Positions 1-49,950 of a stretch of DNA of 64,000 nucleotides are shown piece by piece; position 1 is the stretch's first letter, and each line of letters starts with the position of its first letter. A program made the position numbers and the translations under genes. The stretch is from contig CM026574.1 in assembly GCA_015143295.1 (NCBI GenBank), forward strand, positions 15,192,938-15,256,937, in the 5' to 3' direction. The notes beneath the pieces are model-generated. The model was not told where the DNA came from. It searched no databases and saw only the letters and a program-made list of their open reading frames with translations. Source of the DNA: Tetracentron sinense (lineage: Eukaryota; Streptophyta; Magnoliopsida; Trochodendrales; Trochodendraceae).

Positions 1-1611
1 GGTGGCGGACAGAAGCGAGTACGTGAAGAAGAGAGTGGTGGTCAGTTGTCTGAATCTGCTTTAAGGGTTCATAGAGGGTTTGGTGATTTCAGGACTTCAC
101 AGGGAGAATCATCATCAGGTGCACCAGGTTAGTTTCAAAACATTTCTTAATTTTCTAGTTTTAATATTGATTTATCCTCTTTCTCTCTACTTTTCTTTTG
201 ATTGGATTTTTCTCTCTGTATTTCATTTTTTTTTCCTATGATCATAATCTTCATATATATAATATATTGGATCTTTGTTTCTTACATACCTTAAAAAAAA
301 AAAAAAAATTTGAGTTTAGATGCTAAGATCATAGAAGTATTATGGGTTTTTATACTTATATGATCTGTGAGCATCTAAATTAACCCTTTTTTTAGTATGG
401 GATGTAAGAAACAAAGACAAAACTTCATATATAATTTCTCTATTTTTTTCTACTTTCTTATACTTATATACATATATTTATGTACTTTGATATGGGTTTT
501 CATACTTCTATGAGCTTAGCATCTAAATTCAGTTTTTAAAAAATGGATGCAAGAAAAAAAGATCAAATAAATTTTTTTAAAAATTTTCTCCATTTTCTTT
601 TGGTCTATTTTCCCCCTAATATTTAACTACTATGTATATAGGGTGTAATATTGCATGTAAGATATGAACAGTGTAAAATTATCTTCTTCATTGATCTTAT
701 GATCTCTACGACATAGATTTAAAACAGTTTTATGTCACCACCACCTTTTCAATTCCTTCCATTCCCTTTACAGCTTTACTAGAAGAGTACAAGAGGGTTC
801 TAGTACTCTTATGTGATCAATGAAGAACTCAGAACTAAATGTAGATATCCTTAAACCTTTTTTTTTTTTTTTTTCAATTTCATTTTCTATAGTAAAAGAA
901 GAAGTTCCAAGCATTACAAAGCCCACTACAGCAGCTACATCGAGTCCTCAAAATGAGAACATCTCTCATGGAGAAGGATTACCAGGAGAAAGGAAGAGAA
1001 GATACAGAGGAGTAAGACAAAGGCCATGGGGAAAATGGGCAGCCGAAATAAGAGACCCACATAAAGCTGCCAGAGTTTGGTTAGGCACATTCGAAACAGC
1101 TGAAGCTGCTGCAACAGCTTACGATGAAGCTGCTCTGAGATTCAGGGGAAACAGAGCAAAGCTTAACTTCCCGGAGAACGTCAGAATCCGGCCATCTCTG
1201 CCCGTTTCTCCGACGACCCAACTGGTCATTTCTGATTCTCCAACAACCCTTTTGCCTGTATCTCCATTAATGCCTCAACCATTCATTGATCAATCTCAAG
1301 CTACTCAGCAACTACAGAGCTCTGATATTACAAGGGATTATTTGGAGTATTCTCAGTTACTTCAAAGTTCGGGTGATTTTCAAAGACAGCCCACTAGTTT
1401 GTTAGAACAGATGTATTATTATTCATCATTGGGTTCTTCCTTTCAGGCTTCTTCTTCTTCTTCTCCTTCTTTACCTCTACCTCTGCCTTTTCCGAATCAG
1501 CCAAGGGGTTATTTCATGCCACCGGAAACTCAGGGTCAGAGTAGTAGATCAGATTTTCCGGCACCGTCGTGGACGGATTCTAGTCATTATCCTCCTAGTT
1601 CTTCTAGTTGA
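1..1611 (+). CDS. AP2/ERF-domain transcription factor (5' partial), two exons seen
   Basis: DNA-binding transcription factor of the ERF subfamily, expected in the nucleus on GCC-box-like promoters. Exons are <1..127 and 893..1611. The donor is CAG|GTTAGT at 127/128, and the acceptor is a pyrimidine-rich tract ending TATAG at 892. The split codon G+TA gives Val and keeps the frame. The visible protein is 281 residues. The first 42 ([14 protein letters not shown]...) are hydrophilic. One AP2 domain lies at about residues 80-137, with [25 protein letters not shown] and [19 protein letters not shown]. The Ala and Asp of WAAEIRD are the residues typical of ERF rather than DREB proteins. The tail is Ser/Pro/Gln-rich, with a Ser run before the stop and no EAR repression motif. 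An intron upstream of the AP2 domain and the overall layout recall ABR1/ERF110-113-type (group X) proteins, but that subgroup is an inference. An in-frame ATG at 820 lies inside the intron and is not the start. The real start is upstream of the window. Confidence 0.92.
128..892 (+). other. Intron of the ERF gene
   Basis: AT-rich 765-bp intron between the two visible ERF exons (GTTAGT...TATAG). It contains homopolymer A and T runs. Two similar stretches around 310-420 and 480-560 share the words 'tatgggttttyatactt' and 'gcatctaaatt', which suggests an old internal duplication. I see no gene in it. Confidence 0.8.
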
Positions 1612-6785: not shown

Positions 6786-7041
6786 CAGTGTTATCAGAAT
6801 CGGACCGGGCATCAAACCGGTAGATTGGCCGGTTCCCGATTCCACTGGTCCGGTTCGACTGTGTACTTTTTACACACAAAAAAAAACCATTTTTTAAAAT
6901 TTTTCCCTAATTTTTTCCCGATTCCGGCTGGTTCTGGCCAGTTTTAACCAGTTCTCAAAGAGTACCGGTTTTCAGGGTTTTGGGAACCGACAAGGGGGCC
7001 GGTTCCCAATTCAACCGGCCGGTCTGGTTCTGACAACACTG
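6786..7041. mobile_element. hAT-like MITE rich in CCGGTT
   Basis: A 256-bp element with inverted ends CAGTGTTATCAGAATCGGAC and, on the other strand at the right, CAGTGTTGTCAGAACCAGAC. It is flanked by near-identical 8-bp sequences ATTTAACC (6778-6785) and ATTTAATC (7042-7049). The interior is rich in GGTTCCCGATTCC-type repeats. The 8-bp TSD suggests hAT. Confidence 0.75.
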
Positions 7042-7952: not shown

Positions 7953-10900
7953 TTATATTTTCAGAGCAGCTTTGTGAACCATGGTTTCCTTGTGGATTTG
8001 GTGACAACTTTTCTCAACTAGTTCAAGCAGCTTCTCCAAGTTCATTGCCCACGAGTTGAGAATGTCATTGCTGTCCTTTGCAGTTTGGAAGCAGACTATC
8101 TCCATCGGTCGGTCAATCTTTGCCACCAGTGACTTGGAGACAACCATATCTGAAAGGTGCTTCTCAGTTTCCTGAAATGGAAAGAGATACTAAAATAAAT
8201 CAAAGTGTTGTGGAACTATTCACGATGCCACGGACAGAAAATGGATTGGACTATACATTGTATGTTGTAAGTTTTTTTAGCTCTCCGACTCTGACTGATG
8301 TTATGTAAATGTCAATTTTGAGATTCAAAGTAGATATTACAGATCTGGCATCACCTTGACAAAGTAAATATATTTCAACATATGCCAGACACGAAAAGGA
8401 TGTATTGCAGTTATGTAGGTAAGCTTGCTGCCACAAAATATTTCAAATTTTGTAAACATTGCATTTGTACTGATTGTCATGCCAATCGACTGTCGTGCCA
8501 CCCCTTCCCAATAAACTAGGCTAACAGATCACAGTTACAATAGCAGACATATTTCTAACAGTAGATCCTATAGGATATAATCCCCATAGTGCAAGTTTAG
8601 AAAATTATAATTTAAAGGATTAAAAAAATCTTCAATGAAGGTCTCCACAGACATATATTACAAATCAAGAGAGGAACTTGGGGCAGAGATCCCATTCAAA
8701 GGAGAAACATCAATCGTGAAAAAGCTGCTCCCAGCTGATCAGAGTTAATAAAATTGTACTGCTATAAAAACAAGTGAATTTTCAAGAGGTTTTCTTTTTC
8801 CTTTTCTTTCCAAAACTTTCTATTGATCTACGCACCCTCTAAGAGTAATTTAAATCCATAGGAATTTTTTTTTTTTTGGAGTAATGTGCTAAAATTTATA
8901 GGTTTTCAAGTCTTTATAAAATTATTTTCCATATTTGAAATCCATAAATTCATTGACTTATTATATACTTATCTTCAGTGAATTAATATATAATCTTTAT
9001 ACAATTACTAAAATTAATAAGAAAAAACCATTCTATAGTTGAAATCTTATTTTGCGCGGATTCTTTAAGACAACAAGTGTGCCCCGTGTAGAGACGGACA
9101 TGCTTGTCGTGACTCATATCTACAAGAATCCATGTATTTTGGACTAGGATGGATACAGACACGCTTGATACCCATAAACTCTTAGTGTTCATTGCACAAA
9201 AAAGACGTACAACTGCATATAATTACCAAAAATTTTAATAAATTCTTTCTAACTCTTATCGTTAGCAAAGAGAAGCGGGTAGGAAAAAGAGAGGAAGAAT
9301 CGGAATCCAATTGCTTTCAACAACAAAAACAACACCCCAAAAAACAGAAAAAAAATATGAAAGATTACCGATCTTGCAACATAAAAGAAATGGGGGATAT
9401 GTATATATATATATAGAAAATCATTCTCTAGGGATAAGCTTCAAACATTATAGAAATGCGCTTCGAAAACTCGAATTATTGAAGTTTGAAAGAGATCAAG
9501 GGATAAACTTCGAACATTATTCTCTACAGACACTTCATGTAGGGCTGTAAAGGGATACGGATATTATCCATATCCGAATCCGTTTAGTCGGATAATTATC
9601 CGAAAAGGTATCTGGAGGAACGAATTCGGATAGTAAAATACTATCCATTTATAATCAAATACAGATTCGGATACTAGTATATCTGATTTGATAAAAATTT
9701 ATAAAATTAATATAACCTTTAAAATATATATTTTAAATAAAAATTTACATATTTTTAAATATTAATTTAAATTTTTTAATATTTTTTTAAATAATCGGAT
9801 AATAGCCGAATCTGGATATGTCGGATACGGATATCATATTTCACTATCCGCTGGATATTTATTCGGATTAGGATATCCGGATATATAATCGGATACGAAT
9901 TCGGATATACCACTATCCACTCCGTTTACAGCCCTAACTTCAAGAGTCATTTTCCCATCATCAAGACATTGAGGTCTTTATTTCATTAGAAAATTAAGAT
10001 TTTAAATTAATCTTCTTTGAGATTAGCAATAATTTTAGAATTAATACCTGTTTATCACTTCATTAATTCATTTACTTTCATTTATGTCTTATTTATATTG
10101 TTTGATGTACTGCAGTTTGTAATATATTACTTATGCCTTGTTTGGATACACTTCTCTAGAAGAAATTTCGAGAGAAGTAACATCTGAAAAAGTTTGCAAG
10201 TCATTTTGAGAGCAAAAGACTAGTTTGCAAACTTGAGATTACTTTTTAACCCCCAACTTTACCAAACGTGAGCCAATGCGAGCGTGTAGTGTGACTTCCC
10301 GCAAAAGTAGAAACCTCAACTTCCCACGGAAGTCAACCCCTACCAGCTTCCCTTAATGGTCAGTTTTTTTTAGACTATTTCTGACTTCTGCGAGAAGTAA
10401 AAAATGAACGACAAACAAAACCCAATTTTTATGAAAACACATAGTATTAGGGGTAAATTACACTAACCTCCTCTCTTGTTTATGAAATTACATTGCCCTC
10501 CCCTTTGCTTTAGTTGTCAGTAACAAATTCCTCATTCTAATAGTATGTCGTTACTGACATGGAAGGATTTTGATAATGTCATGGTTTAAACATTTTAAAA
10601 TACCCAAATTACCCTTCCCTAAACCCCTCTAAAGAGATTGTATTTAGTAAGGGCATAAAATTAATTTCATACTCTTACTTATCCTTACCATAGTTGTTAA
10701 ATCCTTGCGATTTGCGATTTAAATCCTACGATTCGATTCAAATCCCAAGCAAAATGATTCAAATCGGAGATATGGGTAAATCTCATTTGATTTGCGCTTC
10801 TGATTACGATTTGCGATTCAAATCGTATGATTCGAGCGATTCGAACACGAAACTCCTTTTACGGACCAATACTTAAAGAATATTTTTTATTCTTTGATTT

Positions 10901-13900
10901 TCTAAAGGTACTTTATGTCTTTTAAAAAAGAGAGAAGAAACAAGAAAACACCTGTCACAGACATGCCAAAACCCCAATTTGGGTTTTCTCTCTATTGCTT
11001 ACATGTTGTGAAATGGGAGAAGAAATGAGGAAGAAGAAAGATCGAGTTGGATTTTGGTAAAACTTTATAGTTTCCGTTGATAGTTTATTTTATTAGTCTT
11101 TTTATTTTTATAAGTTTTTTGATACTTGATCTCATAGAACATGATTATATGAGTTTACTTTTGTTGATTTATCTATTCTGATATTGGTTTTTTTTTTCAT
11201 TTTATGGAGTTCATTCGCGTTTTTATAGTGTGCAATGAAATATTAATTACTTTCTTTTATCAATAGATATGAATGAAATCTTTTGGATAATAGATTATTC
11301 TATTTTTCTGATTTATTAAGTAATTTTTTGCATTTTTTTAACAATTTGTTTAAAGATGGATTGAATCTTACGATTTATGATTTGAATCTCAATTTGAATC
11401 GAATCGGTCCTAAAACAATTTTACGATTCGATTACGATTTAACAATCTTGATCCTTACCCTATGTAAAAATAACATACGGGATTTTTTTAGTCATAATTG
11501 AATATTTCAATCAACTTTTTTAAACATTCTTTTCTCATTATAATAGTAGAGATGGTGGAAAATTCGTGAAAGAGCATCCTCCGTTAACGGTGTCAACTTG
11601 AAGAGCCTAATAGGAGAGGGCAATGTAATTTTAAAAGCAAAAGGGAAGGTTTCTACAATTTTTCGCCAAACCTTAGGGAAATGTAAGTGTAATTTACCAT
11701 AGTATTATTCATATAACATTTGAAGTAAAGTAATTTTTAAAATTAAAAATATCTTCTCTTGTCCCTGGATCTTTTTTGGAGTTCGCCGTGTCCAACACCC
11801 CATATCCGAGTCCATAAAGACACTGAAACCGTGTCCATGTTTGTGAATAGAGATGAAATCTATGGTCGTTTACTTCTGAGTTGTGACCCACCTTATCTTT
11901 TGAGTTTGACTTAATCAAACTTTCTTCTAATCTTCACACTAAATTAGAACTCCCAATTTAACTAAGATTGTGCTTGGATCCTTGGAATCATATTGCGCAA
12001 TATATCAAAAGATCTAGGCATTCAAACTCCCAAGGATTCATTCATCTATACTTATAAATTCTCCTAGTTGGAGGGATTTCGGAATTTCCAGTGGACACAA
12101 CATTGTAGCAGATCCCTTTCGTCGCCGTTGCAGGCACAATGGTCGAAAGGGTAAGCTCTCTGCATGTGATGTGTGAAATGGTTTGGAGAGTCAGGAGGAA
12201 CTGCAACCAGCTCTGGTGGTTCTATGAATAAGAAGATCAACCTAATAGGTTTTTTATTTTTTTTAAGTTTGAGGGCTCTAATGCCTTAGGCTGTTAAAAA
12301 TTGTAGGTGTGTTTAGTGCATCAAACATCAGTTTCTTGAGAACTACTATGGAAATCGAAGTCCAAGGATCCACACAAATCCTTAAAGTTTTTTTTTTTAA
12401 AAAAAAAAGGGGGATCTTAACCAAATAAAAATGTGATTGAAAACAAAACACGACTACCATAGGATTTAATTTAATTAATTAACTATTAAAACTACCAAAG
12501 GAACTAGTCTAACACAATTTGATTATTATTATGCATAACTAGTAAGAACTATTATTTCACTACAAAACTTAAAAAAACAAAAGCCTCACTAAAACTATAA
12601 ATCCAAATTGCACTAGGTGTTTTGGTAAGAACCGTAGGTGTTTAGCACATCAAACACCAGTTTCTTGAGAACTACTATGGAATCAAATCCTAAGGATCCA
12701 CACAAACCCTTAAAAGGTGGTATTTTTTAATAAAAGAGATCTTAAAAAAACTAAAAAAGTGATTGAAAACAAAACATGACTACCATAGCATTTAATTTAA
12801 TTAATTAACCATTACAATTACCAAAGGAACTAGTCTTACACAATTTGATTGTTATTATTCATAACTAGTAAGAAGTAAGAACTATTTTTTTTAACTCAAA
12901 TCTTAAAAAATGAAAGCCTTTCTAAAACTATAAATCCAAATTTTACTCAAGGTATTTTGGTAAGAACCTAAATCCAATAAAGACAATGCAAAAAATAATA
13001 TTCAAAACTAATGTGTCAAACAGAAAGGCATAATTACAAAGCCTAGTACTTTTTTTAAATCCCTACAAGAATCTAAGACCACGATTTTGAAAATTAACGA
13101 AAAAAAATTGATACATATTTTGAAAATGAACAATTACCAATATTAACCCTCATAATCTTATTAAATGCTATTGTTATTCTTAGAATATTATCACTAGCAA
13201 GCATGGTTGTTAAATCCTTGCAATTTGCGATTCAAATCCTATGATTCGATTCGAATCCCAAGCAAAACGATTCAAATCGAGGCTGAAAATTTTAATTGGG
13301 TAAATCTCATTTGATTTGCGATTCAGATTACAATTTGCGATTCAAATCGTACAATTCAAACGATTTGAGCACGAAAAACCTTTTACAGATCAATACTTAA
13401 AAAATATTTTTTATTCTTTTGATTTTCTAAAGGTACTTTATGTCTTTTAAAAAGAGAGAAGAAATAGGAAAAACCTTGTTACAGACATGCCAAAATCCCT
13501 ATTTGGGTTATCTCTTTGTTGTTGTGAAACGGGGAAAAAAAGAAAAAGAAAATAGAAGAAAGGAGGATGGAGAAAGATGGAGTTGGATTTTGGAAAAAAA
13601 TGATAGTTTATTTTATTAGTCTTTTTAATTGTATAAGTCTTTTGATGCTTCATCTCATACGACATATTGTCTGAGTTTACTTTTGTTGATTTATCTTTAA
13701 TGATATTGGAGTTTTTTTTTTTCATTTTATGGAGATCATTCACATTTTTTATAGTGTATGCAATGAAATATTCATTACTTTTTTTTATCAATACATATGA
13801 ATGAAATCTCTTGGATAATAGATTATTATTCTTTTTTTTTTTTTATTAAGTAATTTTTTGTATTTTTTAAACAATTTTTTTAAAAATGGATTGAATCTTA

Positions 13901-16027
13901 CGATTTACTATTTGAATCCCGATTTGAATCGAATCGGTCCTAAAACGATTTTACGATTCGATTACAATTTAACAACCTTGCTAGCAAGTTGCAACCAAGG
14001 TTGTTAAATCGTAATCAAATTGTAAAATTGTATTACAACCAATTCGATTCAAAATGGGATCCAAATTGTAAACTGTAATATTCAATCCAATTATTTTTTA
14101 AAATACATGAAATACTTAATAAATCAAAAAAAATAGAATAATCCATTATCCACAAGATTTAATTCATATCTATTAAAAAAAGAAAGTAATGAATATTTCA
14201 TTGCATACACTATACAAAACGCAAATGAACTCCATAAAAAGAAGCATAACCCCCATATCATCAAAAGATAAATTAACCAAAGTAAACTCATATAATCATG
14301 TTGTCTGTGATCAAGTATCAAAAGACTTGTACAATTACGAAGACTAATAAAATAAAATATCAAGTTCTCCTAGAATCCAACTCTCCAACTTCATCATCTT
14401 TCTTCTTCCTCCTTTCACAGCAACACAGAGAAAACCCAAATAGGGGTTTTAGCATGTCTGCGATAGGGGTTTTCTCGTTTTTTCTATCTTCTTAAAAGAC
14501 ATATAGTACTTTTAGAAAATTAAAAGGAAAAAAAAAACATTTTTTAAGTATTGGTCCATATTCCGTAGCAAAGGTTTCGTGCTCGAATCACATGAATCGT
14601 ACAATATGACTCGCAAATCACAATCTGAATCGCTAATTGAATCATTTACCCGCGATTTGAATTGTTTTGCCTACGATTCGATTCAAATTGTTGGATTTGA
14701 GTCGCATATTGCAAGGATTTAACAATCATGGTTGCAACACATATAAAGCATACTAGTTATGAATTTAAGATTAACTGATCAAGTGCAGTAACTGTGACTT
14801 GCACTACTTACCAGCTATGTACACTGCACATTAGTTAGTCACTGGGCTAAAGCATTTTCTTAGACATTCAGGACAAAATAGGCCTTGTAACGCATTGAGC
14901 TTTTTTTTTTCCCATTGCTTTTTAATTCATTGCTTTTTAAAGTTGGGGAGCATAACAAATATATGAGGTACTACACCAATTGGCATGACAAAGAAAAATG
15001 GCTATTAGAATCATAATTTATTTGGGTTGGTGTAATACTATGACTTCCGACTTGTTTTTTCTTTCCCTTCTCTCACTAGTGAAGAAATGTTATCAAAAGA
15101 CAACAGAATCAGACAGCAACCTCCATGTTTCTTCACATTAGTTCTGGCCAATGAATCACTTCACTGTTGGGGTTTCACTATATATTCTAATCACGCTTCC
15201 ACTCTAAAAAAGGAACCACTGGATTTACAAGCCACCAAGGTCCTTTCATCTTTCTCGATTGATATAATAATAGAACATTAGGTGATTAGATCTATCAGCA
15301 TGAAAACAGATCCCATAAATAACCGTCTACAAAGATTAGTTAACCTGGTAACTTCAAATTAAAATCTTAATTAGAAGATCTCTCTAGTCGGACAAACATG
15401 GCCATTTAATATAATTACGAGGTCACGCCATGTCTAACTCATATCCTTCCCATAGAATTCCAAATATCAAGAGTCAAGGCAATGGTATGATATACTGGGA
15501 AAAAAATCCACTTAAGCACAAGTATTTGCTACCCACCAATTAACATTGATGTTCCATTCATTGAAAAAATTGTCATGTTGGACTGACAGTCTCATTCAGA
15601 CATCCTAATTTCCATGTATATCGCTTTCAGCTATCATTTTTATATAGCTTTAGAGTACGAGTTGTTATTGTGTAACTATATGAACCAAACCCATCTTAGA
15701 AAAGGTCTTTTAAGATTAACTCATCGGTGCAGCCCAGTGTTTTAAAAAGCGTTTGAGGCTTACGCCTCGGGGTGAGGCTGAAGGAAAACGCCTTGAGGCT
15801 CAACCATGAGGCTTAAACCCCATGAGGCTCACATGAAACACACGCCTCATGCCTTGAAGCTCGCTTTATGTCTATTGCATACTTCTTATACATTAACTAA
15901 TATTAGGTTTCTAGTCACTACTAACTAAAATGTCCTTTTTTTTTAATTTATTATTTGTTTCAACAAATTTCTATAGTATTTCATGTGTATGCGTACGCCC
16001 ACACGAACACACACAATGTACACGAAT

Positions 16028-19000: not shown

Positions 19001-22000
19001 GTACGATATTGTTATAACATAAATATGTAATATGAAATAGGTTTATGATATTAATTAGATTTTGATACTTCTATTGTGTGTATTTATGATATATACATTT
19101 TACGCAAGTATTATAGTTGTGCTATTGAACTTCAAGTTAAAAATATTAATGACATCATGGTGAAAATAATACAAATAGATAGTTGCATTTGCATGCACAT
19201 GAAATTCATACCATGTTGGCCCAATATAAAATTGTTGGAAAAAATGATAATAAATAATCACAGTTCTTAAGCAAGCATAAAATACAAATACAATTTTTAT
19301 TTTCTCATTTGATTATAATTCTTAACACTAGAGGTGCAAAAAACCAAATCCATTCCATAAGTTCAAAAAACAAAAGCAATGAGATGAACAACCTCAACTT
19401 CAAGATCCAGTCTAAAAGGTTTTGTTATTTGAATATACATGTTTCTTTATTAGAAGAAACAAGTTTCTTTTTACAAACGAACAAGTTTTTTTTTTTAAGA
19501 AAAGAGTTTCTTTCTAAAGGGAAACGAGTTTCGTTCTGATATACCCCCAACTGAAGTCAATGCCAAGCTAAAAAATGATGACGGAGAACTCTATTTTTGC
19601 CTCAGCTTACAGGTCTTTTAAAAAGGCCTTTGGAGATATTCGTGGGAGGAAACTAGAAAGCACTAATCAAAGGTCAACTCCATAGGATCAAGTATGCGAT
19701 AGAAGGAAACATGTTTCTTTATTAGAAGAAACGAGTTTCTTTTTACAAACAAACAAGTTTTTTTAAAAGATTTTTTTTCTTATATTAAAACAAGTTTCCG
19801 GAAATATTTTATACCAGTCCTAGTATTGGTATGCATATGGACCGGTATGGAGGGCTAAACTAGGTTTCTTGGTTACTATGCTAAAGACTAAAACATAATA
19901 TCCAAGAACAACTACCAAGTTTGAATCTTACTCCCTGGATACCTCAAGAAAGATGAGCGGCATTGGCATATTAAAGGGGAGAAATCACAAAGCCCTCCCC
20001 ATGCTTTAAAGCCTTCAAGTCATCCAGACTCCCCTACTACTAACAATAATTTGCTTCCGGCACAATGATGAAGAGAAAGGGAGATGAAAGGCATCCTTGC
20101 CTAAAGGCTCTAGAGCTTTTGAAGTATCCTTCTGGAGAACCATTAAAAGTTAAGAAGGATGCTAACAAGATGCATGCCCACGCCTAACTCCTCCACCTAC
20201 TGTTGAGCCCGTCCTCAATTTCACATAATCATCGAAGGATCAATTCATATGATCGAACACCTTTTCCAAGTCTATTTTGCAAACCACTTCTTTGATGCCT
20301 TGGTGAATTCTGGAGTCAATGCTCACTTGCAATTGGAACTAGGGGTGCACACAAGCCGAGCTAGGTCGGCTCGATTAAGCTGAGCTCAAGCTCGAAAATA
20401 TGGCTCGATCAAGCCAAGCTGAGTTTTGAAGCTTGAAATGTATTAAAGCCGAGCTCGAGCCAAGGGTTGTTTGATTCGGCTCGGCTCGGCTCGGCTCGAA
20501 GCTCAGTTCGATTTGGCTTGAATATTATATAAAAAATATTATTATTTATATCATTATTATATAATTTAAAATATATATTAAAAAAATATTTTTTTAAATA
20601 AATCAAGTCGAGCTGTTTGAATTCAAGCCGAGCTTTGAGCCAATTTTTCGAGCATCATTTCAAGTCAAGCCGAGTTCGAGCCTAGATAAAATCCATTTCA
20701 AGCTGAGTCGGGCCAAGCTCGGCTCAAATACACCCCTAATTGGAACCTAGGGGTGGTTACCGAACAACTCGAGCTTGGCTCGTTTAAAAGCTCGAGCTTG
20801 TTCGTTTATTTAGTAAACGAGCCAAGCTAGAACATACATGTGCTCAGCTCGTTAAATATTTAATATATACTATGTAATTATATGCCCGCCTATCGTATGA
20901 AGGGCTGGTGAATGGTATAAGTAATACTTAAGGGATCAATTTATAATTTATCAGAAAAGGAGAACGGTTCTTTGTAAGTATCAATTATACAATATACTTA
21001 ATAGTAATTTATCTTAAGTTTTTGTCTAATATTGAAATTTCATACCTAGTTCAGAAACCCTACCCCTAAATCATTACGTCTCTCATTTCCTATTTCTGTA
21101 TTTGACCTATTCTCTCGTTCTCATTCTCCTAATCTCTCTAATCCCTAGATGGATCAAAGTTGCAGGTATGGAGTTTCGTTGCAGGTATGGAGTTTCTACA
21201 ACTCCATTCGATCAATGTCGTCTCACGGCGATGGTCACCTCAACAAAGAAGAGTGATAGAGAAGGAAATGTCTTGTGCTTAATTCGGAATCGGAATTGAA
21301 AAATGGGGAAATTGAGGCCAAATGAAGAAGAGGAGAAGGAAATATTCTCACCTGCCTTTTGCTTCAATAATGGTGGCACCTAATTTTAGATCGAAAGTCC
21401 TTCGAACGTAAGTTAGTTTAATCACAAATCTTAACCTAATTTTTTTTCGTTTCTTGATTTTCTGATTTTGAGTTTCTTCTCTTGATTTAATCACAAATCC
21501 TAATCCCAATTGAAAACGAGCTCTCGGTTTCCTATAGACGATCCGAGCATGTTTATACCCTTATCAATAGGGGTGATATTGAGCCGAGTAGTGGGGTGTT
21601 CAGGCTTGATTCGTTACACTACATGGCTGTTCAAGCTCAGCTCGAGCTCGAATCGAGCTTCACCACTTAGGTTAAAACCCGGCTCGTATATAACACCACA
21701 AGCTTGAGCTCGGCTAGGCTAGGCTCGGGTATACTCTGGTAAGGGTGTAAACAAGCTTGCATTGTCTATAGGAAACCGAGTTAGCTCGTTGACAGATTCA
21801 ATTGAGGCTAGGATTTGTGATTAAATCAAGAGAAGAAACTCAAAATCAAAAAATCAAGAAGCGGAGAAAATTTGGGTTAGGATTTGTGATTAAATTAACT
21901 TACCTTCGAAAGATTTTCTATCTAAAATTAGGCACCACCACTACTGAAGCAAAAGGCAAGTGAGAACATTTCCTTCTCCTCTTCTTCCATTAAACCTTCG

Positions 22001-25000
22001 GCCTCATTTTCTCAATTTCTCAATTCCGATTCCAAATTAAGCACAAGACATTTCCTTCTCTATCACTCTTCTTTGTCGAGGTGACCATCGCCGTGAGACG
22101 GCATTGATTGAATGGAGTTGTAGAAACTCCATGTCTGCAGCTTTGATCCATCTAGGGATTAGAGAAGGTAGAAGATTAGGAGAATGAGAACAAGAGAATA
22201 GGATATACAGAAATAGGAAATGAGAGAATGAGAGGTGTAAGGATTTAGGGGTAGGGTTTCTTAACAAGGTATGAAATTTCAATATTAGACAAAAACTTAA
22301 AATAAATTACTATTAAGTATGTTGTATAATTGATACTTACAAAGAACCCCTTCTCCTTTCTGAAAAATTACAAATTGATCCCTTAATTATTACTTATACC
22401 ATTTGTCAACCCTTCATACGAGAGGTGTGCATATAATTATATATTAAATTAAATATTTAACAAGTCGAGCACATGTGTGTTCAAGCTTGGCTCGTTAATT
22501 AAACAAGCTCAAAAATCAAGTTCAGGCTTGGCTTGTTTACTAAATAAACGAACGAGCTCGAGCTGTTCATGAGCACTGGTGTTCGTTAACCACCCTACCT
22601 ATCAGAGTATACCCGATCCGAGCCGAGCCGAGCTCGAGCTTGTGGTGTCATTTATGAGCCAAGTTTGAACCTAAGTGATGAAGCTCGAATCAAGCTCGAG
22701 CCGAGCTTGAATAGCCATGTAGTGTAACAAGTCAAGCCTGAACAACCCCAACTCAGCTCGGCTCGATACACCCCCATTGGAACCAAGGTTCAAAAAAAGG
22801 GTTTCGGACACCGTAACGGACACAGCTGAAACCGTTACGTAACGGTATCGGCCGATAATTTATTCTTATTTTTTTGCTTAAAAAAATCTGAAAAGTCCCA
22901 ATCAATTGAAAAAAAAACATGTAATAAATTAGTAACAAGATACTTTTAAAGCCAATATGAAGGTTAAAATGTAGAAACAATGAAATTAGATGAGTCGAGG
23001 GTTGAGACTTGAAAGTTGAAACATACACAGAATCTAGTCCAGACTCCAGACTCTATATGGGCAGATAGCCAGATACATATACACCTGCTAAGTGCTAAAG
23101 CCACATAGAATTACGAGCTAACTCATCATCATCATTTCTATTTGGTTGAATGTAAGGCTGCAATATTTTTGATGGATTCGTGAGGGGTTTATAAAACAAT
23201 GAATGAATGGAGTTCATGGGTCTTCACTACTTTGTTTGTAGGCAATTAGGAGTCTAGGAATCTAGACATGTAGTTGGGTGGGTGTCAGAGTCAAACTGAA
23301 AGGCCTGTAAGGCTGCAAAGGAGATTCTCAAAGTTTATTCACGGGTGCAATGCATTTCCGCGAACGAGTCCTACGCCCGTTATCGTTCCGTAACGGGCGT
23401 AACGCCCATTACGTAACAGTTTCGGGCATTACATTTTGGTTTCGGGAAAAAGCCGTAAAGGCACGGTTTCGGGTATTGGAGGCCACCAAAACCGTTACGT
23501 AACGGTTTCGGCGAGTTTTTAAACCATGATTGGAACCCCATCTACCAAGTGTTCATCCTTGACAAAGCTCCGTGATAAGCTCCGACAATTCTGTCTATTA
23601 CCTTTATTAGACGAGAACTCAATAAGAGAAGATTTTGCCTACTATCTTATTGATTTTGTACGCATTTGTTGGCTTGAAATTTGTCAACTCCTCTACCCCT
23701 TTGTTTTTTTGGAATGAGAGAGGTGAAAGTCACATTTGAAGCTTTGTCCCACTTTCTTCTTGCATAAAATTCCTAAAAGATCTTGATGAGATCCCCTTTA
23801 TTGTCCCACAACATGCCTTATAGAAGGCTAAAGAGAAGCCATCAAGTCCATGAGCTTTATCCCCACCCAGGGCTTTAACAGTTGCAAGGATCTCCTCAAC
23901 TTTCCATTGAAGCCAACACATTATTCGCTTTAAGTGAGGCCCAATTTAATGCAATCTCACTCCGGTCAAGAGCCAACACACTATTCGCTTTAAGCAAAGG
24001 CTAAATTTAATGCAATACAACTCCAGCCTAGAAAGGCCCTTTTGGTGTAAATGTTTAGACATAATAAATCAATCTCCTTTCTGAAATCAAATTTTCCTCC
24101 AACATCCACTTGCCCACCTTTACCCTACTTATGAAAAGTGATCCTTCTTCTATCATTTGCATATGTATGGAAGAACCTGAGACTTTGTCCCCCACTTTGA
24201 GCCAATTGATCTTCGACTCTTTTTATCCAACTCATCAATTCTTTCTGGTTTTTTTGTTCTTTCCACTGTGGATAAGGAAGCATCTTCTTTAGTGTTTGTT
24301 ATTTCAATTGTCGACATGAACTCCTTCTTTCCCCCCACTCCAAATGTCTCCTAGTTCAATACCTTGAATATAGAATTGAGACCCTTCAGTTTCATGCAAA
24401 AAGCGTAGCTCACCCACCCACTGAAAATAGAGAACTCCATCAATCTTTGACTCGTCCCTTGAAGTTGGGCTATTCTAACCACATAGTCAAACATGAATGG
24501 AGTCAATCCTACTATCTCTTTCAATTGGATAGGTCTAGATATGAAATTGGGTTAGTTAGAGCCTTTTGAATGACTTTTTGAAAGCTAATTTCCTAACCAA
24601 CCAATATAAGGAACCCATCCAACCGGCATAGAATGGGGGTAGACCCTTGGTTGAACCACGCAACACAAGAACTCTAATTAATGGAAGGTCTATTAGACTG
24701 TTCCAATGGATGAAATCCCAAAGGTGTGCATACTTCTAGTCACATTTTTCTTTTGCCTCCTTTCTTTTTTAGGGCACAAGACCCTCGACTAGCAGATAGA
24801 CCCAATCCGTTGGGCCCCAATTTGCTTTCGTCATCCCCAAATCTCTAAAATCAAATTATTGCCCACCTCCTCAAATTTTCCAAGGTACCATGATCAGGTA
24901 TGACCGTATGAGTTGCTCTCACCACAGTGACAAAGTCGGGGTTCGGGAATAATTTGGCAAAGGTCAAGTTCGGAAAATTCGGGAAAAAATCGGGAAAAGA

Positions 25001-45600: not shown

Positions 45601-48600
45601 CTCAGCTCAATCATAGTTACCAAGTACGGGTATAATACGGCAATGATCCGTTCAGGAAGTACGGGTGTTATACGGCAAAAATATCACAAAAGTACGGAAA
45701 AATTAAAAAATATTTAATAGGTATAAATAAATAGGAATCATGATATTAACTAATAACAATCGTTCAATATGGAATTTGCAGTTAACACGGTGAAAATACG
45801 AGTATTATACGTGCTTAATACGGAATTTGTGTATTAAACCCTAAAATGGAATGAAATTCTTTTGGAATGGTAAATGATTGCATTGATAATAATTTTAATG
45901 TGTCTGACCATTTTTTAAGAAGTTTGTAATATTTTCAGAAGTATCTTCAAGAATTCCTCAAAGATATGTTTTTTGCATTATTTTCTCCATTATAGTGATC
46001 TAAAACACCAAATAAGTATGACAGTGAATTGTGTTATTTACAAAACAAAATCAAATATCAAAGCGACAACCTAATTCAAATCCAATTCCAGTTATAACCA
46101 AACAATGCGATCAGTCAATCAACCCCACCTTTTTTCTAAACAAAACTAACCTGATGTGTACCCAATACACATCCTCTTACTCACATCTTCCTTATCCCTA
46201 ATGTAGTTATTTACTTGTAATTTAGTTTCTATAACTCCTTTGTAGGGCTATAAATAGGAGAAATGTAATCTGTATTTGATATGTTGAATGAAATTAAATT
46301 GTTTTATGAGAACATGTGGAGGTTTGCACCCTCAAAGAGCCATCAATGGAGGTCCCGGGCTGCCTCGAATCAGCCATATCCTCTCCCCTTTCTCTTTTTT
46401 TAATGTTTTCTTGTAAAAGGTACGTAACAAATGGTATTAGAGCACCGGTTCTGCGACTGTGGTGAAGATCGATGTTGTAAAGGGTAAAGGTTGGAGGAAA
46501 ACCCCCTCGAAGCGGTTTTTAGGAGGAAGACCCCCTCGAAGCGGTCACCTGTATCCCAACAGCGTCTACTCCCATTGCTTGAGGCTTTGCAGATTAAAGT
46601 GGTGTGCTGTTAGGCACACCCCACTTTTTGATGACTACACCCCATTAGTGAAAATTACTAACTATGCCCCATTAAAATCATAAAATTACTTGTACACCCT
46701 AAAAACAAAAAATATTTAACCATAAAATTTATAATTACACACCAATCACAATTTTAGACATTACCTATTAAGCTAGACCAAAACTGAATGAGTGATGCAG
46801 TCAATTTTAATTTCATCACTAAAACTATTTATGGCAGACATATGTATTCTAAAGAAATCCCAAAAAAAAAAATGAAGTCATAAAATTTAAGCCATAAAAT
46901 ATCAGAGCCAAAATTTGATGAAATAAACTATTTTCAGATGCAACAACAAAGAAATTTGATGATATGAGTTTTTAGTCAGTACATAAAAAAATATTAGTGT
47001 GGTGAACCAAGCAATCCAAGTGGAGTGTGTGATTGTACCAAATTGGGTGCGTGTGTTTTCCTTCCATCAAAAAACCAAGCAATCCAAACACACATATGAC
47101 ACCTAATGCTAGAGGCCTCTAAGTTACTTGAGCCTCACTTTTTGGGAGGCACGTACCCAATTTCTATTAGTTACAGTTTTTTCTTGATAGAAAGAAGTTG
47201 GGTGAGTTTGTTTCATCAAACACTAAAGTCCTAATAGAAAGAAGGGGGTTGAGAGTTGAGACCCAAAAATAGTTGAAGCAATTGTAGCAGTAGGGTTGCT
47301 TGCATTCAATACAGACGATGTTGAACACGAGTAGAGAGAAAGAAGCAGAGGAAGAACGGATGAAGAGAGGAAGAAGAGAACGACGCAAAAAAATTGTGGG
47401 GTGCGGCTATTAAGTTTAGGAAAAACTATAAGGGCAAAAAAAAAAGGTGCACTCAAAAAATTTTGGGGTGCACCTAACATTACCCTTAAAGTGTTTCGTA
47501 ACCTTGAGGACAAAGAATGTTTCTAGGGGAATGGAATGATGTGTACCCAATACACATCCTCTTATTATCTCTTGTCTTCCTTATCCCTAATGTAGTTATT
47601 AGTAGTTATTTACTTGTAATTTAGTTTCTATAACTCCTTTGTAGGGCTATAAATAGGAGAATGTAATTTGTATTTGATATGTTGAATGAAGTTAAATTGT
47701 TCTATGAGAATATGTGGAGGTTTGCCGCCTCGAAGAGGCATCAATGGAGGTCCAGGGCTGCCTCGAATCAGCCATATCCTCTCCCCTTTCACCTTTTTTT
47801 AATGTTTTCTAGTAAAAGGTACCTCCATAAGGGATCTGCTTCGAGTGTAGATCGAACTCCACAAGTGTAAAACACTAAGTTAATTTGTTCTTTCTTGCTT
47901 CATTCATTGAAGATAATACATATTTATAATGAATACATGTAACTGTCTATAACTCCCCACAACTCACAACTCACAACTCACAACCCTATAACTACCCACC
48001 ACCCACCACTCCTATCTTATCTCTAAATAACTACTTATAAATAAAAGACGCAAAACATACTATTCCCCTTAAGAAAACCTTGTCCTCAAGGTTTGAAATG
48101 AAATGAACGCCATTAATGGATGAAGGTTACCGCTTTGAGGGGGTTTTCCTCCAACCTTCAACCTTCATAGCAATCTTTCCATTGATCCATCTCCAGCCCG
48201 GGAATGCAGCTCTGATACCAAATGATACATACCCAAATAAAAGTAAACAAATTTAAAAAGAGGGAGGGAAGAAGATGACTCATTCGAGGGAGTCTGAACC
48301 TCCATAAGGCTCCGTTCTTTTGGTGGAACTTTTAAAATTCCAGAACATCAATGTTTTGGATCAAGTGGCAATAGTCTAGGAAGAGAAGGAAGAAGGTTTC
48401 CAACCGTTTTACTTGATGGTATCTCAAATTTATGAGTTCAATTTAGTTAGAAATTCCACATCTATGGGACTTAAAACATCCAAAATTTTGGGTAGAACTT
48501 AAAGGTTCTATATTTGTAGATCTTTTGCACTCTATAAATAATATAGTTCTAGACATTAAGTAAAATTAGGCATGAAACTATGGAAGTTCTAGACTTTAAA

Positions 48601-49052
48601 AGTTTCACCAAAAGAACGACTTCGAGTGTAGATAGAACTCCACAAGTGTAAAACACTAAGTTAATTCATTATTTCTTGCTTCATTCATTGAAGATAATAA
48701 ATATTTATAATGAATAACTCCCCACAACTCACAACCCACAACCCCTATAAATACCCCCACAACCCACCATTCCTATCTTATCTCTAAATAACTACTTATA
48801 AATAAAAGGCACATAACATAACCCATGAAAAAAAATCTTACTAAAATCTATTGGGATTGTGAAAAACTAAATTCAGCAGAATCCAGTTCAGATACCCAAA
48901 TCATTTAAAAATTACTATTTCCAACCTCAATCAAAACAACACCCAGACTTTAAAATCGATAAAGAACAACAATCACCGTAGAGAGCGAACATTAAATAAA
49001 TAAAAAAACTTACATTCTCTCCTTTCCAAACTTGGTATACTCGCTTCGCCAT
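42700..49052 (-). CDS. DHHC-type protein S-acyltransferase (PAT05-09 clade), 5 coding exons, 343 aa
   Basis: Membrane palmitoyltransferase that attaches palmitate to protein cysteines, expected in plasma or endomembranes. Coding exons on the minus strand are 49014-49052, 44669-44854, 44044-44247, 43673-43906 and 42700-43068. All joins are phase 0 with GT...AG introns; the second donor GTTGGT is weak. The protein starts [27 protein letters not shown]. Membrane segments lie at about residues 29-48, 63-82, 148-170 and 192-217. The cysteine-rich domain has [15 protein letters not shown] and [12 protein letters not shown], with DHHC at 131-134 (catalytic Cys134). [11 protein letters not shown] and [11 protein letters not shown] follow the last membrane span. 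Relatives in this clade (Arabidopsis PAT08 and PAT09, from memory) are about 400 aa. This protein lacks about 40 residues between the PR.S and the first zinc Cys pair and has a shorter tail. The usual TTxE motif reads TLFE. The 3' end could use another exon. Confidence 0.92.
45605..45840. mobile_element. Fragment related to the 18885 element
   Basis: Begins CATAGTTACCAAGTACGG, similar to the ends of 18885..19880, with repeated GTATAATACGG and TACGGAATTTG words. I cannot find a matching right end or TSD, so it is probably truncated. Confidence 0.45.
46155..47822 (+). mobile_element. TRIM-type LTR retrotransposon
   Basis: Two direct LTRs begin TGTGTACCCAATACACATCC (46155-46429, 275 bp, and 47540-47822, truncated at its 3' end). 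Each contains a TATAAATAGGAG promoter box and GGAGGTCC-type 3' sequence. Right after the 5' LTR is TGGTATTAGAGCAC (46432), a primer-binding site for initiator tRNA-Met (canonical TGGTATCAGAGC). A purine stretch CTAGGGGAATGGA precedes the 3' LTR. Subtracting the nested 884-bp element leaves an internal region of only about 220 bp with no gag/pol, which defines a TRIM. Replication would depend on proteins of other elements. Confidence 0.85.
46602..47485. mobile_element. hAT-like insertion nested in the TRIM
   Basis: An 884-bp element bounded by exact octamers TTAAAGTG (46594-46601 and 47486-47493). The ends are GTGTGCTGTTAGGCACACCCC and, inverted, GGGTAATGTTAGGTGCACCCC. Several GGGGTGCA / TGCACCCC words recur subterminally. 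It is younger than the TRIM. Confidence 0.8.
47823..48822 (-). mobile_element. Minus-oriented short LTR element, 3' LTR truncated and joined to the TRIM
   Basis: Read on the minus strand, an LTR starts near 48822 (TGTTATGTGCC) and runs, interrupted by a MITE at 48308, to about 48225. There a primer-binding site reads TTTGGTATCAGAGCTGC (tRNA-Met type). A second LTR copy starts near 48057 (TGTTTTGCG) after a purine tract and stops at 47823. The LTRs share TTATAAGTAGTTATTTAGAG and CACTTGTGGAGTTC. The internal region is only about 170 bp, so it too is TRIM-like. Both elements lack their 3' LTR ends at the junction at 47822/47823, suggesting deletion between them. Confidence 0.7.
48308..48618. mobile_element. 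PIF/Harbinger-like MITE of the E3 family, inserted in an LTR
   Basis: Left end GGCTCCGTTCTTTTGGTGGA follows TAA. The right end has ACTTTAAAAGTTTCACCAAA and stops at AAAGAACG, lacking the last bases expected from the left end. Comparison with the unoccupied LTR copy at 47823-47850 defines the insertion point. Confidence 0.72.
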
Positions 49053-49950
49053 GAGAATCCGCTCTTACCACGACGGAAGAGAGTCGAAAATTTTGGGTAC
49101 AAATGACGCTCGTCCGATTGGTGATTGTCTGGGTTTTTCTGTGATTTAGAGAGAGAGATGAATCCATTCTCTTTTTGATTTGAAACGCAGTTAGGAATAT
49201 GGATGCCTCAAGTGTGAAGTTTAGAATTGTCAATTGTAGGAAAGCTTCCGCTCCCACACTCTGCTCTTGATTTAATTGTGACCAAATAACCCATTTACCC
49301 TTCATCGTTCAAAGTTTTTGTTTATTCTTGGAAAATAGTTAACTTACCTGGGAAATGGATTTTACAATGACCACCTCATTGGTCCATGACCTCCCTTTTA
49401 AATATCAACCACCATGTCCTCCTCTTAAATACCCGTCACAGTTGGTTGGTATTTAAGAGGGGGGCATTGACCAATAAAGTTCGGCTTTTGATTGTAAAAT
49501 CCATTTCCCAAGTATGCTAATCACTGCTCTTTATTCTTTTGTTTGGTAACTGCTATAGATCCGATTAGTTATCCGTTGGAATTTTCTTCTAGTTGTACCC
49601 ACTCAACCACTCTTTTCAGGTATCCACAACTTATGACACCATAGTGGCTACCTCAGGCTGTGTGTGTGTTTAGACCGTGCGTGTTAGTTACATGATATCA
49701 TTTCAACCACAAAAAAAAAAAAAAAAACCACCCTTTTTCATGTATCCACAACTCGAGTTCGGATGGGCAACAGCGCTTGTTGTTGCCCCATTGTGTCTGA
49801 AAAATGAGGGCCCCACTCATGGTTGATGTGGGGGGCCATCCTTATTAAATGCAGGACCTATTTTGTTCATATACAAGGGGCAACAGCGCAACAGCAAGCG
49901 TTGTTGCTCATCCAAACTCCCACAACTCTCCCACTAAGATGTGCTAGATT
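49053..49950 (-). promoter_or_regulatory. Upstream flank of the S-acyltransferase gene
   Basis: Sequence 5' of the ATG on the minus strand, containing a short GA-rich leader (GAGAGAG at about 49149-49156). I see no clear TATA box or other recognised motif. A short ~100-bp inverted repeat with arms TCCTCTTAAATACC and GGTATTTAAGAGG lies near 49380-49460. Confidence 0.4.

Follow-up and report, generated by a model that had tools for sequence, protein, structure and literature searches.

Clustered or parallel insertions of miniature inverted-repeat transposable elements (MITEs) are already known from carrot, guayule, rice and pineapple. Among these are the SaTar arrays (guayule and rice; PMC5907723), in which different non-autonomous elements lie end to end and none interrupts its neighbours; the elements are Mutator-like, insert at microsatellites and make duplications of 10 bp (guayule) or mostly 9 bp (rice). 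The microsatellite-associated MITE clusters of pineapple also consist of adjacent, non-nested insertions, and contain 46.1% of the full-length copies (PMC8449440). In carrot, different Stowaway MITEs occur at exactly one position; such parallel insertion sites make up about 1.6% of sites and were read as insertion hotspots (PMC6881990, PMC3695323). Here we describe a locus of Tetracentron sinense in which three elements, A, B and C, which all look like non-autonomous hAT elements to judge from their ends and duplications, stand one directly after another at copies of one 8-mer within a long interspersed nuclear element (LINE). The locus lies in a 64,000-nucleotide stretch of contig CM026574.1 (hereafter the window, from whose first letter the coordinates are counted), and we consider it a well-supported further case of these clustered-insertion phenomena.

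Like the SaTar arrays, A, B and C form an uninterrupted array; unlike them, the array shows neither a microsatellite target nor duplications of 9-10 bp, as its members are hAT-like, duplicate 8 bp, occupy an 8-mer in a LINE and include one element, B, that is itself nested. The pineapple clusters differ in being Mutator-derived and having a (TA)n target (PMC8449440), and the carrot insertions in being mariner-type elements with a TA target, found as alternative alleles in different plants and not stacked on a single chromosome (PMC6881990, PMC3695323). The maize Ac/Ds elements are similar in that they are hAT elements with 8-bp duplications (PMC3260210). In the open-licence literature searched, we recognised no report of hAT stacks that share one duplication.

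The first-pass annotation of this DNA had claimed that one 8-mer occurs four times, exactly where three adjoining elements begin and end, and we found the copies of ATTGGAAC where this claim requires them, on the plus strand at 20332-20339, 20739-20746, 22776-22783 and 23529-23536. One further copy lies on the minus strand, at 24700. The resulting count of 5 on both strands of the window, relative to 3.9 expected, was reached by 35 of 100 shuffles, and count enrichment was therefore rejected as evidence by itself; because the number of copies is ordinary for the window, the evidence lies in their placement at element borders. At a second ATTGGAACTAGGGGTG in the genome (locus L004), no element border was seen on inspection by eye.

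Border positions of the three elements were varied within 2 bp, and each register was scored for its duplication and for the match between the end bases. Element A (20340-20738, 399 bp) had a perfect 8-bp duplication at shift 0, where 8/8 end bases matched; its duplication was also perfect at shift -1, but only 4/8 end bases matched there. For element C (22784-23528, 745 bp), a perfect duplication at shift 0 coincided with an end match of 6/8 (11/13 terminal bases), and the duplication that was likewise perfect at shift +1 coincided with an end match of 0/8. Element B, in the register first assigned to it, had a perfect duplication of ATTGGAAC and an end match of 4/8, whereas at 20748-22776 it had a perfect duplication of TTGGAACC and an end match of 7/8, and this latter register was also fixed by alignment of B's two internal copies. 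We therefore place B at 20748-22776, with the target TTGGAACC shifted by 1 bp, so that the borders originally given for A and C stand, while that of B is corrected and the three elements do not all use exactly one register. On the plus strand, ATTGGAAC at 20332-20339 and 20739-20746 is thus the left and right duplication of A; TTGGAACC at 20740-20747 and 22777-22784 is that of B, the last C of the right copy being the first base of element C; and ATTGGAAC at 22776-22783 and 23529-23536 is that of C. Since B ends at 22776, the first A of the ATTGGAAC that begins there is B's last base. The perfect 8-bp duplications in the registers with the best ends uphold the earlier proposal that a duplicated target was re-used by elements with different ends.

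When the outer flanks were joined through one copy of the 8-mer, LINE reverse-transcriptase sequence could be read across the join on the minus strand, with frameshifts and stops. The left flank (20140-20331, coding strand minus) is decayed reverse-transcriptase sequence, and the same LINE continues in the right flank (23537-23699, minus strand). Used as a DNA query against the same genome (1,161,278,568 bases), the joined flank gave 4 matches, two of which were the flanks themselves. The other two were LINE paralogues, one on contig C1 that is collinear over query 5-363 (67% identity) and one on contig C8 that covers query 121-208 (79%), its scored match stopping 8 bases past the site. Both paralogues, when aligned, had exactly one 8-bp counterpart (ATCACCAC and ATTAAAAC, respectively) and no gap at the site, and the ancestral LINE therefore had one copy of the 8-mer. 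Comparison with other LINE copies had been suggested as a check; the uninterrupted C1 and C8 paralogues support the continuity of LINE sequence across the outermost copies, as well as serial insertion into a LINE that held one ancestral copy.

This comparison is stronger evidence for the empty site than are the protein matches, for which pieces were picked from three frames and then joined, with the join at residue 137. The joined pieces matched Pfam RVT_1 (E=2.7e-6) with 27.7 bits, just under the curated cut-off of 29.6; its start lies 4 residues ahead of the join, so that its support comes from the left flank. The right-flank part alone matched no Pfam family at E<=1 and only one, unrelated, protein in the PDB at E<=10 (E 0.53). 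The whole joined string had 5 PDB matches at E<=1, of which 4 were named LINE-1 ORF2 and 1 was an RNA-directed DNA polymerase; these were weak (E 0.032-0.16) and collinear across the join, from residue 17 to 226. Searched singly, one of the five LINE pieces matched RVT_1 (E 0.036), one matched a chance family (E 0.13) and three matched nothing.

Two features expected of hAT elements were found in all three members of the array. Perfect 8-bp duplications flank A, B and C, as they do three further elements of the window described below (D0, D1 and D2), and the short terminal inverted repeats start with T/CA, as TAGGGGTG (with TGGGGGTG at the right end of B) or CAWGGTT. We take these ends to resemble hAT ends. 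A is bounded by TAGGGGTG/CACCCCTA and C by CAAGGTTCAAAAA / CATGGTTTAAAAA; the TAGGGGTG ends are common to A and B, which also share a GAGCCGAGC stretch adjoining one end. When the three elements were compared with the window by BLAST (E 1e-4), no similarity between them was reported, and the kinship of A and B is thus one of ends only. No stop-free stretch longer than 89 amino acids was present in B or C. With respect to the usual description of MITEs (below about 800 bp, non-coding, with inverted ends), A and C have the size and the ends, and B, at 2,029 bp, exceeds the size. The earlier description of the array as three unrelated MITEs is not supported, because B is a 2-kb nested pair of an element of about 1 kb and shares its TAGGGGTG ends and GAGCCGAGC stretch with A.

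Inverted-repeat searches in B gave interleaved arms, which were resolved by the presence of a 1,030-bp element inside a copy of the same family. The host, e, is 991 bp long and occupies 20748-21567 and 22606-22776 on the plus strand, ending in CACCCCCA; the guest, e', occupies 21568-22597 in the opposite orientation. B is thus an element of a family of about 1 kb into which a second copy has inserted inversely. Global alignment of host and guest from first to last base gave 859 identities in 1066 columns, of which 111 were gap columns (89.9% identity ungapped). The guest is flanked by CTTATCAA (21560-21567, the last 8 bp of the first part of the host) and CCTATCAG (22598-22605), both given on the plus strand, which match at 6/8 positions, as they likewise do at shift -1, and the guest's own uninterrupted counterpart, CTTACCAG, represents the empty site of the nested event. 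Duplication mismatches number 2/8 for the guest vs 0/24 for A, B and C together (P 0.056), and the nesting of B might have preceded its arrival at this site. A 161-base query spanning the junction, for which 40 of 218 candidates were scored, gave 41 matches in the genome: the locus itself, 2 within B and 38 at other places. Of these 38 listed matches, 16 start exactly at the first base of the guest, 21568, and none contains the host-guest junction, which among the 41 matches occurs at this locus only.

In the maize double Ds, one Ds copy is inserted inverted into another. B resembles this layout, with one element inverted inside its own copy and a decayed guest duplication. It differs from Ac/Ds in that its ends are TAGGGGTG rather than C/TAGGGATGAAA; a further trait of double Ds is transposase-dependent chromosome breakage. 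Nested Ds elements of maize are described as rarer than nested long terminal repeat elements, probably because they break chromosomes (PMC3260210). Annotators should bear in mind that what looks like a 2-kb 'foldback MITE' may be a nested pair like double Ds.

The target preference of such elements was evaluated in 271 kb, consisting of the window and fetched loci, many of which were chosen for adjacent ends and hence form a biased sample. Scanning this sequence for elements that have TAGGG-, CAWGGT- or similar ends between 8-bp duplications gave 25, relative to 2 in one shuffle; these represent 24 sites, as A and C share one, and 23 distinct insertions, as those at L039 and L040 are one duplicated insertion. 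The strict motif nTnnnnAn, reported as a target of Hermes (PMC2803484), was present at 10 of the 23 (background 9.8%, P 2.9e-5), and nTTnnAAn, counted by eye, at 5. The symmetrised consensus was GTTnnAAC, in a table that counts the duplicated L039/L040 site twice; the target reported for hobo is GTNCGNAC (PMC3276498). That scan did not recover B, D0 or the guest, which lie outside the 23; including them would give one more fit (D0), one more miss (B) and, for the guest, one copy that fits and one that does not. That the preference is for the site rather than for one family, as was suggested earlier, is plausible, in that ATTGGAAC fits nTnnnnAn and comes close to GTTnnAAC, the patterns of other insertions in this genome, but it is not proven, as shared-duplication pairs should number in the tens.

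This expectation comes from a genome-wide model with 107,000-145,000 such elements, which is rough because its densities derive from the window and the biased sample. The model predicts 10-18 shared-duplication pairs if insertion is uniform, 23-43 if nTnnnnAn sites are preferred and 74-136 if nTTnnAAn sites are assumed to take a 30% share; the corresponding triples number 0.001-0.002, 0.009-0.02 and, for the assumed stronger motif, 0.15-0.37. With tens of pairs expected at this copy number, pairs are therefore ordinary, and the triple is rare and was selected for being striking. In a local model of eight insertions in about 57,835 bp, the chance of a triple at one site was about 1.7e-8 if uniform, 1.9e-6 if only nTnnnnAn sites are used, 1e-4 for nTTnnAAn and 0.02 for nTTGSAAn.

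Facing ends of the kind seen at this locus also occur elsewhere in the genome. The pattern CACCCCTA-N0..30-TAGGGGTG was found at 97 places, vs 5 for a reversed control; 50 of the 97 were listed and the sequence around 39 of these was examined, many being repeat families. The spacer-0 junctions were rejected as stacks, as all 8 among the 50 listed places share the flanks of one repeat family, and a distance control (CACCCCTA-200..230-TAGGGGTG, 1544 places) was rejected as a baseline because most of those listed belong to one repeat family. Perfect TAGGGGTG ends 7-9 bp apart were found at 9 places, this locus included, relative to 1 for the control. On contig C10 (locus L022, 2248-4395), GCTCTAAG stands three times exactly around elements of 788 and 1336 bp, with 2 mismatches in the left end, and a place on C826 with the same spacer and junction is probably the same stack. 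On C8 (L021), ATTTCAAG, GTTTTAAG and GTTTCAAG stand around 95 and 116 bp, the two outer copies showing 2 and 1 mismatches to the middle copy. Two places on C13 have the spacer GGGTTCA(C) of the distance-control repeat family. On C20, the right element only was verified (901 bp, GTTTCCTT twice); on C6 (GTTGGAACG), the left element shows GTTGGAAG/GTTGGAAC and its right neighbour lacks a matching duplication; on C15, there is a weak left match only. The comparison of shared-duplication neighbours with chance, called for by the first-pass annotation, yielded further pairs (exact at L022, with mismatches at L021), of a kind that is ordinary at this copy number.

Two of these loci contain other arrangements. 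Both ends of the right element at L022 resemble those of the B family, and nested within it is a 556-bp element with CATGGTTT ends and AGGTGAAG duplications. At L047 (1944-2525), a 566-bp element with ends like those of the B family has GCCTAGGG on both sides, and its target includes 5 bp of its neighbour's TAGGGGTG end.

From the observed borders, duplications, empty site, nesting and other stacks, we consider it very probable that A, B and C inserted independently and serially into a dead LINE at a single site, each copying a favoured target. A staggered hAT-like insertion would duplicate 8 bp of the target, each event would provide the following element with one more copy of a good target, and hAT-like elements with different ends would use these copies, B arriving in a register shifted by 1 bp. 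hAT transposases may act in trans on all three elements, and target preference would be the cause of the re-use. We found no feature that tells the order in which A, B and C inserted. Several observations weigh against this explanation. The targets of A and C fit nTnnnnAn, but that of B, TTGGAACC, does not, and neither do 13 of the 23 sampled insertions. The triple is rare even with a motif preference (0.001-0.02 or 0.15-0.37 expected genome-wide), and no transposase was tied to A, B or C, no search aimed at a transposase having been made. Furthermore, D1 (13202-13980) and D2 (13996-14730), members of one family that lie 15 bp apart in opposite orientation in the window, have perfect duplications (CTAGCAAG and GTTGCAAC, respectively) that overlap by 1 bp, and their use of two different overlapping 8-mers indicates that elements can lie close together without having re-used one sequence. 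Theirs is the only junction of exact D-family ends at most 30 bp apart genome-wide (diverged ends would be missed), and this lone junction gives no sign of a general tendency in the family.

The same arrangement of D1 and D2 would be expected if hAT transposases were drawn to existing hAT ends, by bound transposase or bent DNA, and inserted a few bases away at any target sequence. The use of GCCTAGGG, with 5 bp of the neighbour's end, by the element at L047 and the 15-bp spacer at L038, where the right element was verified, point in this direction as well; however, just one D-D junction of exact ends within 30 bp exists genome-wide, and no sharp spacer peak appeared among the 50 of 97 places listed, from which repeat families were removed by eye and for which there is no clean baseline, and we regard attraction to ends as unlikely. 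Still less probable is that separate alleles, with one insertion each at the same site, were later joined by exchange between the 8-bp copies. The carrot insertions provide alternative alleles of this kind, and the outcome would look identical, but exchange at 8 bp of homology is required, and because several insertions at one site are needed all the same, this explains nothing extra. We give almost no credence to an array produced by segmental duplication or assembly error: repeats can mislead assembly, and the junction of the C10 stack recurs on contig C826, but A, B and C have their own ends and no mutual similarity at E 1e-4, and the LINE paralogues support one ancestral copy.

Besides A, B, C, D0, D1 and D2, the hAT-like elements of the window that have duplications include those at 9540-9936 and 6786-7041, with one mismatch each in their duplications, which makes at least eight. 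D0 (10689-11450), a third copy of the D family that is 83% identical to D1 and has a perfect duplication, ATCCTTAC, escaped the scan and came to light through its similarity, and eight is therefore a lower bound. A 3.9-kb stretch at 45747-49690, flanked on both sides by CATGATAT and having TAACTAA ends, is perhaps another transposon. An open reading frame of 263 amino acids at 820-1611 resembles a plant AP2/ERF transcription factor. In scans of viral contigs, a 16-mer had 3 matches, which we attribute to chance, and a D-family end had none.

The locus shows cleanly how several hAT-like elements that differ in their ends have used one target, the genome also holding paralogous empty sites and additional stacks, and the question of whether a duplicated target stays attractive becomes testable by counting. 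We tentatively raise the possibility, which we think doubtful, that hAT motifs are self-multiplying hotspots, in which the preferred sequence is part of the 8 bp that are copied, so that each insertion would yield two equally good targets. If this were true, different hAT families would feed one stack, and end-to-end arrays could arise at unique sites without microsatellites.

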